From the NCBI RefSeq assembly GCF_002834295.1, contig NZ_PISP01000001.1:186001-250000 (forward strand): a stretch of 64,000 bases of DNA, written 5' to 3'. Positions 3,037-31,597 of this stretch are shown here, piece by piece. The DNA is from Rhodohalobacter barkolensis (GTDB lineage Bacteria; Bacteroidota; Rhodothermia; Balneolales; Balneolaceae). A program made the translations under genes and the position numbers. The notes below the pieces were generated by a model. It had not been told where the DNA came from and did no database searches. It worked only from the letters and a program-made list of their open reading frames with translations. The first letter of the stretch is position 1, and the number at the start of each line of letters is the position of its first letter.

Positions 3037-4035
3037 ATGAATGATGACCTGTCCATAGAAAAAGAAGTTGAATCGGTTCCGCTAAACCGTGAAATGGTGC
3101 TGGTGAATAGCCGACTTATTGTGACTGTACTTCCTGAGATGGGAGGTAAGATCTCCGGAATTGTACGAAGAAAGTCCGGTACGCAATTTCTTCATCAGAC
3201 AGATGAGAACTACCAAAATGTTGAACTCCCTGCGTATGGGCAGGAATTTCAGCCACCCTATGCTGCCGGTTTTGACGACTGTTTCCCGACTGTTTCATCG
3301 TGTTCGATTTTGCTAAATGGAGAGACTATCGATCTGCCGGATCACGGCGAGCTTTGGACGTCTCAGTGGGAGGTGGAACAGTTAGGCCCCGGAGTAAAGC
3401 TGACCACTTATGGAAAAAAGCAGAACTACCGCTTTACAAAGTGGATCCATCTGGATGGCGAAACACTTACGATACGCTACCGGGTGGAGAATTTCAGCAA
3501 CTCCACCATACCCTTTATCTGGTCATCCCACCCGCTGTTGAATGTAGATCCTGAAGATGAACTGATATTACCACCCGAGATCAATGAAGTTTTGGTGGAT
3601 GGAATGACTGAAAAGGAGATTGGAAAGTTTGGAGATCGATTGTCGTGGCAGGGGTTGAAATCTGAAATACTTCCGTATGATCTGTCCATAGTTCAACCAA
3701 AAGAAGCCGGGTTTGCGGGTAAATTTTTTTCAAACAGACTTCAAAACGGACTGGCGGGTATCTATCGGAAGCAGACAGATGAGTCACTGCTTTTCCGGTT
3801 TGATACAGCTGAAATCCCCTACCTGGGAATCTGGCTCTGTTACGGTGGATGGCCGGAAGATTTAGATGAAAAAGATCTGACAGTTGCCCTGGAACCGTGT
3901 ATCGGTCGGCCGGATAGTTTGAAGAAGGCAATGGAGTGGGGCGAAAATCAGGACATTGAGCCATCAAAACAGCGAGAGTGGTCGCTGGAAATATCCATCG
4001 AAGACGGAAAATTAAATTTAAAACCAACAAATTGA
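3037..4035 (+). CDS. Aldose 1-epimerase (galactose mutarotase)-like protein
   Basis: About 332 residues of beta-sandwich type with no signal peptide, so probably cytoplasmic. The N-terminal segment (LIVTVLPEMGGKISGI) and the later FIWSSHPLLNVDP and CYGGWPEDLDEK segments resemble the galactose-mutarotase-like superfamily, which interconverts alpha and beta anomers of hexoses. The canonical GalM catalytic His/Glu pattern is not obvious by eye, so it may be a divergent epimerase or a sugar-binding relative. It sits 17 nt after the GH53 gene and 4 nt before the symporter gene, which supports feeding imported galactose in the right anomer to GalK. No strong ribosome-binding site is seen. Confidence 0.75.
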   Translation: MNDDLSIEKEVESVPLNREMVLVNSRLIVTVLPEMGGKISGIVRRKSGTQFLHQTDENYQNVELPAYGQEFQPPYAAGFDDCFPTVSSCSILLNGETIDLPDHGELWTSQWEVEQLGPGVKLTTYGKKQNYRFTKWIHLDGETLTIRYRVENFSNSTIPFIWSSHPLLNVDPEDELILPPEINEVLVDGMTEKEIGKFGDRLSWQGLKSEILPYDLSIVQPKEAGFAGKFFSNRLQNGLAGIYRKQTDESLLFRFDTAEIPYLGIWLCYGGWPEDLDEKDLTVALEPCIGRPDSLKKAMEWGENQDIEPSKQREWSLEISIEDGKLNLKPTN

Positions 4036-4039
4036 GCAT

Positions 4040-5677
4040 ATGGAATTTTCTCTAATAGATACGATTGTTTTTGTGGCATATGCACTGGCCATTGTGGGAT
4101 TGGGGTTATGGGTATCCCGCGAAAAAGAGGGGCATCAGAAAAATGCTGAAGATTACTTCCTGGCCAGTAAGGCGCTGCCGTGGTGGGCGATTGGGGCATC
4201 GCTGATCGCAGCCAACATTTCGGCGGAGCAGATTATCGGGATGTCCGGTTCAGGTTTTGCGGTGGGACTTGCCATTGCATCCTACGAGTGGATGGCAGCT
4301 GTAACATTGATCATTGTAGGTAAATACTTTTTACCGATTTTTATTGAAAAAGAGCTGTTTACAATTCCGGAATTTATTGAGTACCGCTTCAATACCACAC
4401 TGAAAACAATCCTTGCCGTTTTCTGGATTGCTCTCTTTGTTTTTGTAAACCTGACGACGGTGATGTACCTCGGAGCCCGCGCACTGGACACAATTATGGG
4501 AACCGGTGACGGTAGCCTGTTGATCTATGCATTAATCGGATTGGCATTTATTGCGGCGGCGTATTCACTTTATGGCGGACTTTCCGCTGTGGCGTGGACC
4601 GATGTGCTACAGGTTGCCCTGTTGATTGTTGGCGGTACGGTTACTACTGTAGTGGCACTGAACCATGTGACTCCGGATGGAGGAATTTTAAATGGGATGG
4701 CTCACCTTTATGATGTTGCAGGGGATAAGTTTAATATGATTCTGGACAAGTCGAATCCCGAATATAATAATCTGCCGGGAATCGGAGTTCTGATTGGCGG
4801 ATTATGGGTGGCCAATCTCTACTATTGGGGGTTCAATCAGTATATCATTCAGCGAACACTGGCGGCCAAATCTCTTGAGGAATCACAAAAAGGAATTATA
4901 TTTGCCGGCTTCTTAAAGCTGATCATTCCACTCATCGTTGTCATTCCCGGAATAATCGTTTACGTGCTTTACGTACAACCTGAAGGAACAACCATTATAC
5001 CAGGAGTGGTGGATGTATTCACAAACCCCGACGGCAGTATTGTGTACGATAATGCATATCCATGGCTCATTAAAGTATTTCTTGCTCCGGGTTTTAAAGG
5101 ATTGGTTGTGGCTGCACTTGCTGCGGCAATTGTATCTTCACTGGCATCCATGCTCAACTCAGTTGCTACGATTTTTACCATGGATATCTACCGGCCATAC
5201 TTCAACCCGAATGCTACCGATAAGCAGACTGTGAACACGGGACGAATTACGGCTGCAGTTGCATTGGTAATCGCAGTATTGATGGCCCCGCAACTGGCAA
5301 ATGTACCACAGGTTTTCCAGTACATTCAGGAGTATACCGGCCTGGTAAGCCCGGGAATTTTGGCGGTCTTTATCATGGGGCTTTTTTGGAAAAAAACAAC
5401 GACTCAGGGAGCCATTTACGGAGTGTTGGCATCCATCGTGATTGCCCTGTTGCTCAAAGCTCCGGCGCTCAATCTTCCGTTTCTGGATCAGATGTTCTAC
5501 ACGCTCATCATCACCATTGTGATTATTGCCGGTGTGAGCCTGACGACCAATCCGTATGATGAAGATCCGAAAGCAATTCATACAACAGCGGATATGTTCA
5601 AAACGAGTCCGGCTTTCAATATCGGGGCATATATCATCCTGATTATTGTATCTGTGCTGTACGCTGCCTTTTGGTAA
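4040..5677 (+). CDS. Sodium/solute symporter (SSS family), probable galactose or oligosaccharide importer
   Basis: Inner-membrane transporter of 545 residues with about 13-14 hydrophobic helices. The N-terminal DYFLASKALPWWAIGASLIAA block and the ISAEQIIGMSG motif are characteristic of SGLT-like SSS transporters, which couple sugar uptake to sodium entry. It starts 4 nt after the preceding stop codon, so translational coupling is likely. Its place between a mutarotase-like gene and galK makes galactose the most likely substrate, as inferred from context. No SusC/SusD pair is attached to this operon in the window, so outer-membrane entry is unassigned; it could be encoded upstream. Confidence 0.92.
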   Translation: MEFSLIDTIVFVAYALAIVGLGLWVSREKEGHQKNAEDYFLASKALPWWAIGASLIAANISAEQIIGMSGSGFAVGLAIASYEWMAAVTLIIVGKYFLPIFIEKELFTIPEFIEYRFNTTLKTILAVFWIALFVFVNLTTVMYLGARALDTIMGTGDGSLLIYALIGLAFIAAAYSLYGGLSAVAWTDVLQVALLIVGGTVTTVVALNHVTPDGGILNGMAHLYDVAGDKFNMILDKSNPEYNNLPGIGVLIGGLWVANLYYWGFNQYIIQRTLAAKSLEESQKGIIFAGFLKLIIPLIVVIPGIIVYVLYVQPEGTTIIPGVVDVFTNPDGSIVYDNAYPWLIKVFLAPGFKGLVVAALAAAIVSSLASMLNSVATIFTMDIYRPYFNPNATDKQTVNTGRITAAVALVIAVLMAPQLANVPQVFQYIQEYTGLVSPGILAVFIMGLFWKKTTTQGAIYGVLASIVIALLLKAPALNLPFLDQMFYTLIITIVIIAGVSLTTNPYDEDPKAIHTTADMFKTSPAFNIGAYIILIIVSVLYAAFW

Positions 5678-29109: not shown

Positions 29110-30051
29110 TTGGAACTACTTCTTTTTATTCTGGGCTTGGTTTTTTTGATTTTCGGAGCTGAAATTCTTGTTAATGGAGCTTCAAAAATTGCCGCCACAG
29201 TTGGACTTTCTCCACTTATTATTGGTTTAACGGTTGTAGCTTTTGGCACCAGCTCACCCGAATTGTCCGTCAGCCTCAAATCTCTCTTATCGGGGCAGGT
29301 TGATGTAGCTGCAGGAAATGTTATTGGCAGTAATATTTTTAATGTGCTGTTTATTTTGGGATTATCAGCTTTGATCACTCCACTTATTATTACTCAAAAG
29401 CTGATACGATTTGATGTTCCGATCATGGTAATTCTATCGGTTGCAGTTTGGCTGTTCTCACTAAACGGATCTATTTCTCAACTTGAAGGAGGAATCCTTT
29501 TTATAGCTCTTTTGATCTATATTTTTATTCTGATTTACAAAGGGAAAAAAGATCAAACTGAAGATACATCAGACTACTCAGAGGGTGGTTCACGTTTCAA
29601 ACTGTTGTTGAAAAATGGAATCTTTGTAATTCTTGGGCTGGTACTATTGGTGTATGGTTCAAGATGGTTTGTGGACGGAGCTGTTACTTTAGCACGACAC
29701 TTTGGAGTGAGTGAGCTGGTTATTGGGTTGACTATCGTTGCCATGGGTACCTCACTTCCGGAAGTATTTACATCAGCGGTTGCTGCATTTCGCGGGGAAC
29801 GGGATATTGCCGTTGGGAATGTGGTGGGCAGCAATATCTTTAATTTATTGGGTGTATTGGGAATGACCGGTTTGCTGTCTAAAACGGGAATGATTGTGAA
29901 TTCTTCTGCAATTTCATTTGATATACCGGTGATGATTTTTGCAGCCCTGCTCTGTTTGCCCATTTTCTTTTCAGGAAAAATCATTTCACGTAAAGAGGGC
30001 GGAGTCATGTTGGGTTTATATGTTCTGTATATTGTCTATCTGATCTACTGA
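29110..30051 (+). CDS. Calcium/sodium (CaCA family) antiporter
   Basis: 313-residue membrane protein made of two homologous halves, each with the alpha-repeat motif: GLTVVAFGTSSPELSVSL with GNVIGSNIFN, and GLTIVAMGTSLPEVFTSA with GNVVGSNIFN. This is the YrbG-type bacterial Ca2+/Na+ exchanger pattern. The start is a TTG with no strong ribosome-binding site; a stop codon lies 12 nt upstream in frame, so no longer protein is possible. It follows the P-type ATPase gene closely and likely shares its transcript, giving two calcium-handling proteins in a row. Confidence 0.92.
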   Translation: MELLLFILGLVFLIFGAEILVNGASKIAATVGLSPLIIGLTVVAFGTSSPELSVSLKSLLSGQVDVAAGNVIGSNIFNVLFILGLSALITPLIITQKLIRFDVPIMVILSVAVWLFSLNGSISQLEGGILFIALLIYIFILIYKGKKDQTEDTSDYSEGGSRFKLLLKNGIFVILGLVLLVYGSRWFVDGAVTLARHFGVSELVIGLTIVAMGTSLPEVFTSAVAAFRGERDIAVGNVVGSNIFNLLGVLGMTGLLSKTGMIVNSSAISFDIPVMIFAALLCLPIFFSGKIISRKEGGVMLGLYVLYIVYLIY

Positions 30052-30086
30052 AAAGGCTGCATATTTTAATTAGAATAGGTAGACAT

Positions 30087-30124
30087 AAAAAAAGCCTGTT
30101 AACCATGGGTATGATTAACAGGCT
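30087..30124 (-). terminator. Intrinsic terminator downstream of the TPP riboswitch
   Basis: On the minus strand AGCCTGTTAA pairs with TTAACAGGCT (10 bp, 12-nt loop) and is followed directly by a run of seven T. The + strand version lacks a T run, so it works only for minus-strand transcripts. It begins 22 nt after the riboswitch P1 helix closes. Confidence 0.92.
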
Positions 30125-30146
30125 ACTCTCTCTTAATTGGATCGAA

Positions 30147-30240
30147 GTCAACAATTTCCTTACGGCCCGTATGATCGGGTTTCAAGTTCGAAGGGTACTT
30201 TCTCAGTCCTGATGGTCTCAGGGCACCCCTAACTGTTGAC
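30147..30240 (-). promoter_or_regulatory. TPP riboswitch aptamer (orphan)
   Basis: Read on the minus strand, the sequence shows the full thiamine pyrophosphate aptamer. P1 is GTCAACA with TGTTGAC. P2 is AGGGGT with ACCCTT. P3 is CCTGA with TCAGG. The pyrimidine-sensing CTGAGA is at 30206-30201. The pyrophosphate arm has P5 CCCG with CGGG around an ATCATA loop. The usual P4 pairing CCU/AGG appears here as CTT/AAG, a compensated change. A terminator follows at once. No thiamine biosynthesis or transport gene lies downstream: the next DNA in that direction is the antisense of the antiporter gene. Confidence 0.88.
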
Positions 30241-30325
30241 CTCGAGTTTCTTACCGAACCTCTCTTTTCTCTCTGGCTGATCTTGGTTCTCTCGTTTGCT
30301 CAACATTAACAACAAATTCAGACCG

Positions 30326-30429
30326 GGGCACAATCAAACATTTCTTTTGATCAAGATGCATTGATTAATCAGCGGACTATTTTCTGATAGATTCAACCTG
30401 CCACCGTAGTGACTGATTAAATTGTGCCC
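30326..30429. other. Nested inverted repeats in the leader region upstream of the riboswitch
   Basis: GGGCACAAT (30326-30334) pairs with ATTGTGCCC (30421-30429). Inside it, TTAATCAG (30365-30372) pairs with CTGATTAA (30413-30420); the right arms are contiguous, so a 17-bp interrupted helix can form. It lies between the small ORF at 30561-30812 and the riboswitch on the minus strand and could be a leader structure or a weak processing or termination element. Confidence 0.5.
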
Positions 30430-30560
30430 TAAATCTGTTTACTCTCATTAGCTCAAAGAACTCACTTATAGTATAAACACTTAGGTTATATTGCCATGTA
30501 AGAAATGGGAACAACAGAGTGTAATATTATCTCCATTCGCACTTGTCAAGTTATTTGAAA

Positions 30561-30812
30561 TCATTCAATGTCAACTTTTTGAACATTAACGATATAAATT
30601 ACTTCCTCATCTTTAATTTCAATTTCCCCATCAATTACCTGGAAAGCTTCACCGGCTCTGAATGGGAGATTTGCTTCTTCTAAAATGTCTGTTGATCGAT
30701 CTACCGCAATTGCCCCGCCTTCATTCTCCCATTTTTGCTGAAGTTTGTAGTAGGCTGCGGTCTGTTTTGGCACGTCCAATATGATTCTTAGTTGCTTTTC
30801 GTAAGGTCCCAT
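30561..30812 (-). CDS. Small conserved-looking protein of unknown function
   Basis: 83 residues, acidic toward the C-terminus, with a regular alpha/beta alternation (RIILDVPKQTAAYYKLQQKW at the N-terminal part, EEVIYIVNVQKVDIE at the end). No family is recognised. It has an ATG but no clear ribosome-binding site. It is the only minus-strand gene near the orphan TPP riboswitch, and it lies upstream of it in transcription direction, so it is not its target. Confidence 0.6.
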   Translation of the reverse strand: MGPYEKQLRIILDVPKQTAAYYKLQQKWENEGGAIAVDRSTDILEEANLPFRAGEAFQVIDGEIEIKDEEVIYIVNVQKVDIE

Positions 30813-31129
30813 AGCTGTGATTTTTTAATGATTCATTCTAAATCAATACTTCACACTTAACACTGATTTTTTTCTAGTTAGAATGATAATAAAAGTTATT
30901 GTTCTGATATGTGCATCACAACTGATCTGATCATCAGGATTAACCAACTGTGAGTGTAGGTAATTTGCTGAGTAGGCATTGTTACTAACCCTTTCCGGGA
31001 AAAAACACTACACATGAATTCTCTTCTCTATTACAAATATGAGTGGTTTAGATGGTATGAAGTGTCTATAAAAGTACTCAACTTGAAAATGTGATATAAA
31101 CTTAGTGAACATAATCAATGGAGAATAAA
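30813..31129. other. Gene-free intergenic region
   Basis: 317 nt of mostly AT-rich DNA between two divergent genes. A partial palindrome (CTGATCTGATCATCAG) near 30929-30944 could be an operator. Otherwise nothing is identified. Confidence 0.4.
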
Positions 31130-31597
31130 ATGATCAAAATAGTAAGCAAATCGGCCGCACTGATTTTGGTGCTGTTGATCTCTTCTATGCCGCTTGCCGC
31201 TCAGCAAACCGGACAGCAAATGCAGCAACAACAGATGAGACAACATCAGGAGATGCAGGATATGATGCAGCGAATGAACCAAATTATGGAAAGAACCCAG
31301 GCGATGACACAGGACATGAATCGCCGGATGGAGCAGGCTCAAAATGAGCAGATGCGAAATCAGTTCCAGATGATGCATCGTTTTGGCGAGCAGATGAGTA
31401 TGACCCTTGGCAATATGAAAAATGCTGCTGAGAGATGCGATCTGATGCTGCAAAACAGAGAAATGATGCAGAACCGTGATATGAGGCAAGACATGGAGAA
31501 CATGCAGAAGCATCTTTCTGAAATGACAGAACGAATGGAAGAAGCAGTTCAAACCATGGAACGGATGACAACCAGATTACGCGAACACCAACAATAA
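31130..31597 (+). CDS. Secreted methionine/glutamine-rich helical protein
   Basis: 155 residues; GGAG 6 nt upstream supports ATG 31130 over ATG 31118. A signal peptide (cleavage near PLAAQQ) is followed by about 130 mature residues with about 26 methionines and many glutamines, spaced every three to four residues in a pattern suited to a long amphipathic helix or coiled coil. One cysteine is present. Met-rich periplasmic segments can bind Cu(I) or Ag(I), but no defined metal-site family is recognised. A barrel-like gene follows after 16 nt, suggesting a functional pair. Confidence 0.8.
   Translation: MIKIVSKSAALILVLLISSMPLAAQQTGQQMQQQQMRQHQEMQDMMQRMNQIMERTQAMTQDMNRRMEQAQNEQMRNQFQMMHRFGEQMSMTLGNMKNAAERCDLMLQNREMMQNRDMRQDMENMQKHLSEMTERMEEAVQTMERMTTRLREHQQ

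Follow-up and report, generated by a model that had tools for sequence, protein, structure and literature searches.

A TPP aptamer joined to a pseudoknotted RNA domain suggests that Balneolaceae cells sense the vitamin B1 coenzyme through a gene-free RNA

A TPP aptamer and a terminator without a downstream gene

TPP riboswitches normally sit before thiamine uptake or biosynthesis genes, where they act as switches. An earlier note on a 64-kb stretch of the Rhodohalobacter barkolensis genome (the window) had described a TPP aptamer on the minus strand, followed by a strong intrinsic terminator and by no gene. A default Rfam scan of the 64-kb window reported tRNA only and missed the aptamer. With a permissive scan of 571 bp (30030-30600), we found a match to the full RF00059 model (1-105 of 105) at 30240-30140 on the minus strand, with 51.0 bits and an E-value of 4.3e-9 (6.4e-9 against the whole genome). 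The default scan passed over it because the gathering score, 54.3, is higher. The CTGAGA motif and the compensated CTT/AAG pairing of P4 are both present, and the terminator consists of 14 pairs and a T-run. Folded together, aptamer and terminator reach a z-score of -4.9 relative to shuffles. Both elements were read correctly in the earlier note.

The gene order was also as described. The minus-strand DNA 3' of the terminator is the antisense of a Na/Ca exchanger gene (29110-30051, plus strand, PF01699), no same-strand gene lies downstream, and the nearest minus-strand ORF, of 83 amino acids (30812-30561), lies upstream. An assembly artefact, raised in the same note as a concern, is unlikely, because a genome of the same genus has an 84% identical copy that adjoins a homologue of the same divergent gene as in the window (31118-31597). 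This match, from a DNA search of relatives, spans from approximately 260 nt upstream of the aptamer to the terminator. Elsewhere in the window genome there is one further TPP riboswitch, with 68.8 bits. It lies 25 nt upstream of an 842-aa ORF, which we take, from the look of its sequence, to be a TonB-dependent receptor.

The element had been called an orphan riboswitch. This holds in that no gene follows it, but it is not isolated: conserved RNA starts roughly 195 nt 5' of the aptamer, and a domain at 30435-30320 that had gone unnoticed, here termed X, makes up the 5' half of the predicted RNA, the TPP aptamer being the 3' half. The features, all on the minus strand, are:

30470 to 30502, minus: promoter-like region (CTTACA 30502-30497, ATGGCA 30497-30492, TATACT 30475-30470), with a predicted start near 30463
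about 30463 to 30087, minus: predicted whole RNA of about 375 nt, in the order X, linker, TPP aptamer, terminator
30320 to 30435, minus: domain X, about 116 nt, 104.7 bits with the R1 covariance model
30241 to 30319, minus: linker from X to the aptamer; its sequence and length vary with the genome (37 to 86 nt among the first 11 copies)
30140 to 30244, minus: TPP aptamer with a long P1 (10-12 pairs), CTGAGA and P4 formed by ACTTGA/AAGG; RF00059, 51.0 bits
30126 to 30136, minus: purine-rich TTAAGAGAGAG between aptamer and terminator, which recurs in relatives by reading of their sequences
30087 to 30124, minus: intrinsic terminator, a 14-pair stem (30124-30093) and then a T-run

The promoter-like region of the window matches the consensus at 9 of 12 positions, which is weak and no better than chance in the window alone.

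Structure and distribution of domain X

In the window, the P1 stem of X pairs GGGCACA (30429-30423) with TGTGCCC (30332-30326). X also has three hairpins, and CCG (30375-30373) forms a pseudoknot with CGG (30325-30323). A consensus of the 5' block built from 11 copies has 29 pairs, 18 of which show compensatory changes. In 47 X sequences, two-sided changes were found in 27 of 32 pairs, and 90.9% of cells were paired compared to 71.2% in shuffles and 34-43% in slid controls; as the alignment was fitted to the covariance model, these counts lean towards the structure. The pseudoknot is outside that model. It pairs the P3 loop CCG with a CGG after P1 in all 47 sequences, with two-sided changes in four.

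Queries with X sequences from the window and its relatives had no plausible match to an Rfam family, even at permissive thresholds. With the first X model, 128 genomes of the order were searched and 32 had the domain, each of them from one family. A refined model was run on 244 genomes of the class and detected it in 49, which represent 13 genera and are all Balneolaceae. No X was found outside Balneolaceae in a phylum sample of 394 genomes, and a GTDB-wide pattern scan returned mostly Balneolaceae. A lone match of that scan in another phylum (L133) was discarded, having only 15 bits and reading like coding sequence. Viral contigs contained no exact match to the X pattern. The E-values from the X models are rough, and the counts of X are lower bounds because many genomes are incomplete and the filters were tighter whenever more than 40 genomes were searched. 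Judged by its covariation, X is a pseudoknotted RNA domain outside Rfam that, in the genomes searched, is found in Balneolaceae only.

X and the TPP aptamer are conserved as a unit

We kept 79 copies of X. A TPP-like aptamer comes after 29 of them, five of which we included by eye once a regular-expression test had been run. The 29 X+TPP copies come from 23 genomes of at least six genera, all in one family (Balneolaceae), and have the same order as the window: the conserved 5' block, a linker, an ACTTGA/AAGG aptamer with a long P1 and mostly a terminator. Further low-scoring aptamers appeared in RF00059 searches of relatives, and in four relatives the X-linked aptamer exceeds the gathering score (61.1 to 67.1 bits). 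After the aptamer, a script found a strong hairpin terminator in 16 copies and P1 running directly into U5-7 in eight; two more hairpins were recognised by eye, and three copies had neither.

We then compared the genes that surround these copies, with ORFs called by length alone. In 17 of the 29, the closest ORF downstream is convergent; in nine it lies on the same strand and in three it is out of reach. The convergent genes differ by genome and include an exchanger, PPDK, Hsp20, beta-lactamase-like and sulfotransferase-like proteins, and others. The nine same-strand ORFs start 66 to 1412 nt away, belong to differing families and mostly lie behind a terminator. No thiamine gene was recognised downstream of any of the 29 copies, where ten proteins, some of them not downstream neighbours, were searched against Pfam and the rest were judged by eye. 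Each of the ten either had no match or proved to have no relation to thiamine. The 83-aa ORF upstream of the window copy (30561-30812, minus) has no Pfam match; at least four other genomes have homologues of it close to an X+TPP or X copy.

The upstream regions share two elements, CYTACA and TATA[ACT]T, each in 22 of 28 copies (7% and 15% in shuffles, respectively). X+TPP loci also share a genomic setting. Proteins of a stress-related island lie within 4 kb of 21 of 25 X+TPP loci (window excluded) versus 10 of the 41 loci with other X copies. They are related to proteins that surround the window copy or other copies and comprise flavodoxin-like, P-type ATPase, Hsp20, universal-stress-like, DUF2267, DksA-like, MMPL-like and glucan-synthase-like proteins, with only part of these names taken from a Pfam search. 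By its shared upstream elements, its terminators and its varying neighbours, X+TPP has the sequence signs of a stand-alone small RNA. One X copy in such an island (L089, 4800-4915, minus) has TTAAGAGAGAG and a terminator, with other sequence in the place of the TPP aptamer.

X-linked aptamers form a group of their own

A tree that comprises 26 X-linked aptamers and 35 gene-linked ones from relatives has a single branch, with 99/99 support, that parts the two sets; the alignment has few columns, and the inner forks are weak. This separation indicates that the X-linked aptamers are old rather than recent strays. They carry ACTTGA/AAGG in place of ACCTGA/AGGG, while the gene-linked sequences that were inspected have ACCTGA with AGG. 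The pairs of P1 are kept, with two-sided changes, and in P2-P5 94.5% of cells are paired and 11 of 18 pairs show two-sided changes.

Motifs that contact TPP, which we assign from established thiM structures, are CTGAGA on the pyrimidine side and CTTGA with the CG before AAGG on the pyrophosphate side. The window copy has both, as do 22 of the 26 aligned copies. Counted separately, CTGAGA occurs in all 26 aligned copies and ACTTGA plus CG[AT]AAG in 22. The pyrophosphate-side bases are lost or degraded in G030b, G033b, G071, G076 and G097, three copies of one genus having lost them and two others being degenerate. Since about six X copies in the islands also have no aptamer, TPP sensing appears to be dispensable in some lineages. 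At L149 (3178-3277), L159 (3176-3272) and L160 (3249-3348), CTTAC or CTTAA and AAATAAGG replace the pyrophosphate-side bases and P5 looks nearly continuous. These three aptamers have perhaps changed their ligand or bind none.

X copies without an aptamer and DnaA boxes

About 50 of the 79 X copies lack an aptamer and mostly run straight into a T-tract. Around 40 of these have DnaA-box-like sequence upstream. The exact box TTWTNCACA occurs at least once in 39 of 48 aptamer-free copies, with a mean of 1.56 per 110 nt versus 0.02 in shuffles, and it is absent upstream of all 28 X+TPP copies. Behind the DnaA boxes, a simple pattern identified a TTGAC-like box and a TAATTA-like box in 31 of 50 aptamer-free copies, which would place the transcription start near the 5' end of X. 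Six more X copies have upstream elements of the X+TPP type and no aptamer.

X copies with DnaA boxes and promoter-like sequence number up to five per genome and are sometimes in tandem. Aptamer-free loci include L103 (4983-5097, 6132-6246 and 6789-6903), L104 (5173-5292), L136 (3009-3127 and 4821-4939), L141 and others. In the window genome, a single paired DnaA-box site lies directly upstream of an ORF that is presumably dnaA, by the look of its sequence. X alone forms a separate candidate family of small RNAs, perhaps tied to DnaA. At L087 (4135-4252) and L088 (7576-7695), X stands straight before an ORF, at distances of 58 nt and about 20 nt, respectively, without a T-tract, and a use of X in cis is possible at these two loci. 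At L105 (4029-4145, minus), an aptamer-free X is followed on the same strand, about 150 nt downstream, by a cobalamin riboswitch (RF00174, 113 bits). We considered this riboswitch as a swapped aptamer at L080/L105 and rejected it: X has its own U-tract and a DnaA-type upstream region there, and what follows the riboswitch is a separate ORF on the same strand.

A stand-alone RNA that may sense TPP

In the predicted fold of the window RNA, P1 of the aptamer and the terminator both form with a probability of about 1 and coexist. Forbidding the terminator costs 21 kcal/mol and brings about no new pairing. A short match seen by eye in the window (CUGUU/AACAG), through which a P1 strand could compete with the terminator arm, is unused in the predicted fold, and by eye the closest relative does not have it. 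Neither a switching expression platform, with pairing that competes with P1 or the terminator, nor a sign of ligand-controlled RNA length through termination was found in this fold. Because P1 and the terminator coexist, we read termination as independent of TPP, which would act on the finished RNA.

We suggest that X+TPP is a stand-alone RNA gene, constitutively terminated and located in a stress-gene island, that takes TPP as its signal and acts in trans; on balance we hold this reading to be probable. An own promoter would give rise to the RNA, in which the pseudoknotted X would fold before the TPP aptamer, and transcription would end at the terminator whether or not TPP is bound. Binding of TPP to the 3' domain would then alter the stability or partner binding of the RNA, and X or the purine-rich tail would act in trans, tracking the TPP level. 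Taking TTAAGAGAGAG as a seed, we located its complement at a single further site in the genome, antisense to a 570-aa ORF, and found no target. More tentatively, a single RNA module may serve both replication-linked and stress-linked regulons, with a Balneolaceae-wide class of trans-acting TPP sensors and X also in use as a DnaA-box small RNA.

The earlier note had offered three explanations, a relic left after gene loss, a trans-acting short RNA and a TPP-controlled antisense transcript. The short RNA is now the best supported of these, considering the 29 copies in 23 genomes with no thiamine gene recognised downstream, the shared promoter-like upstream elements and the terminators in about 26 of them. 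A relic, or a cis riboswitch of an unrecognised downstream gene, is the least credible of all the possibilities that we weighed. Standard TPP riboswitches are cis-acting and nine copies do have a same-strand ORF downstream, but these ORFs are of different families, mostly behind a terminator, and a loss would have to be common to 23 genomes in which the fold is kept by compensatory changes, most copies retain the TPP-contact motifs and a conserved 5' domain is joined to the aptamer. Nor do we give much more credence to a read-through governed by TPP that would produce RNA antisense to the exchanger/ATPase operon, by the mechanism of AspocR (discussed below). A convergent neighbour lies downstream in the window and in 17 of 26 copies, as this would require, yet the identity of that gene is not conserved, and the terminator and P1 do not compete in the predicted fold.

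Two further alternatives concern the division of labour between the domains. The aptamer fold could serve the X RNA as a stable 3' cap and as its terminator, with TPP sensing incidental or lost and X alone doing the work. The eight copies in which P1 itself leads into the U-tract, the three copies of one genus in which the fold persists without the pyrophosphate-side bases, and the many aptamer-free X copies are consistent with such a cap. Conversely, both contact motifs are kept in 22 of 26 copies while the stems change, and CTGAGA and the J4/5 bases would be superfluous for a mere cap, which makes this explanation unlikely in our view. Rather less likely still is that X, too, is an aptamer, which would make X+TPP a two-input sensor RNA. 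X is compact, has a pseudoknot and keeps conserved bases in its loops (RAAA..CCG); in aptamer-free copies P1 and the pseudoknot mostly lead straight into a U-tract, like a terminator-embedded aptamer; against this, the gene context offers no guess at a ligand.

Comparison with known systems

Likeness to TPP riboswitches (RF00059) extends over the full model, CTGAGA, P2-P5 and the conserved contact motifs. The differences are the lack of a recognised thiamine gene downstream, the ACTTGA/AAGG P4, the P1 of 10-12 pairs, the junction to X and the separate branch in the aptamer tree. Our literature search found nothing that joins riboswitches and Balneolaceae and, among the papers listed, no stand-alone TPP aptamer family, in a coverage mostly outside subscription journals. 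If the proposed reading is correct, a coenzyme sensor has been recruited for action in trans, with gene-free TPP aptamers and X placed among stress genes. The precedents for trans-acting aptamer RNAs that we can cite are cobalamin and SAM riboswitches of Listeria, and two concrete candidate RNAs, X alone and X+TPP, emerge here.

In Rli55/EutX, the non-coding RNA by which EutV is sequestered contains a cobalamin riboswitch (PMC8079631). As in X+TPP, a metabolite aptamer resides in a non-coding RNA that has a second functional domain; however, the ligand differs, and the aptamer of Rli55/EutX precedes the effector part and governs termination ahead of it, whereas the aptamer of X+TPP is 3' of X and its terminator does not compete with it. 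AspocR is an antisense RNA controlled by a cobalamin riboswitch (PMC8079631). It resembles X+TPP in having an aptamer and terminator that face a convergent gene, but in X+TPP that gene is not conserved and there is no sign of terminator switching. The SAM riboswitch SreA acts in trans on prfA (PMC8079631), and like X+TPP it is a terminated riboswitch transcript with a proposed trans action. SreA is also the cis riboswitch of a transporter operon, while no cis gene was recognised for X+TPP. Lastly, the HMP-PP riboswitch, as cited in PMC7266159, is reported to have an aptamer embedded in its terminator, similar to the eight relatives in which the closing stem of the aptamer leads directly into a U-tract; it differs from X+TPP in aptamer and gene context, and the window copy has a separate terminator.

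At L047, two divergent TPP riboswitches stand back to back (3981-4079, minus, and 4204-4296, plus), each before a long ORF that, by its look, we take to encode an outer-membrane receptor.
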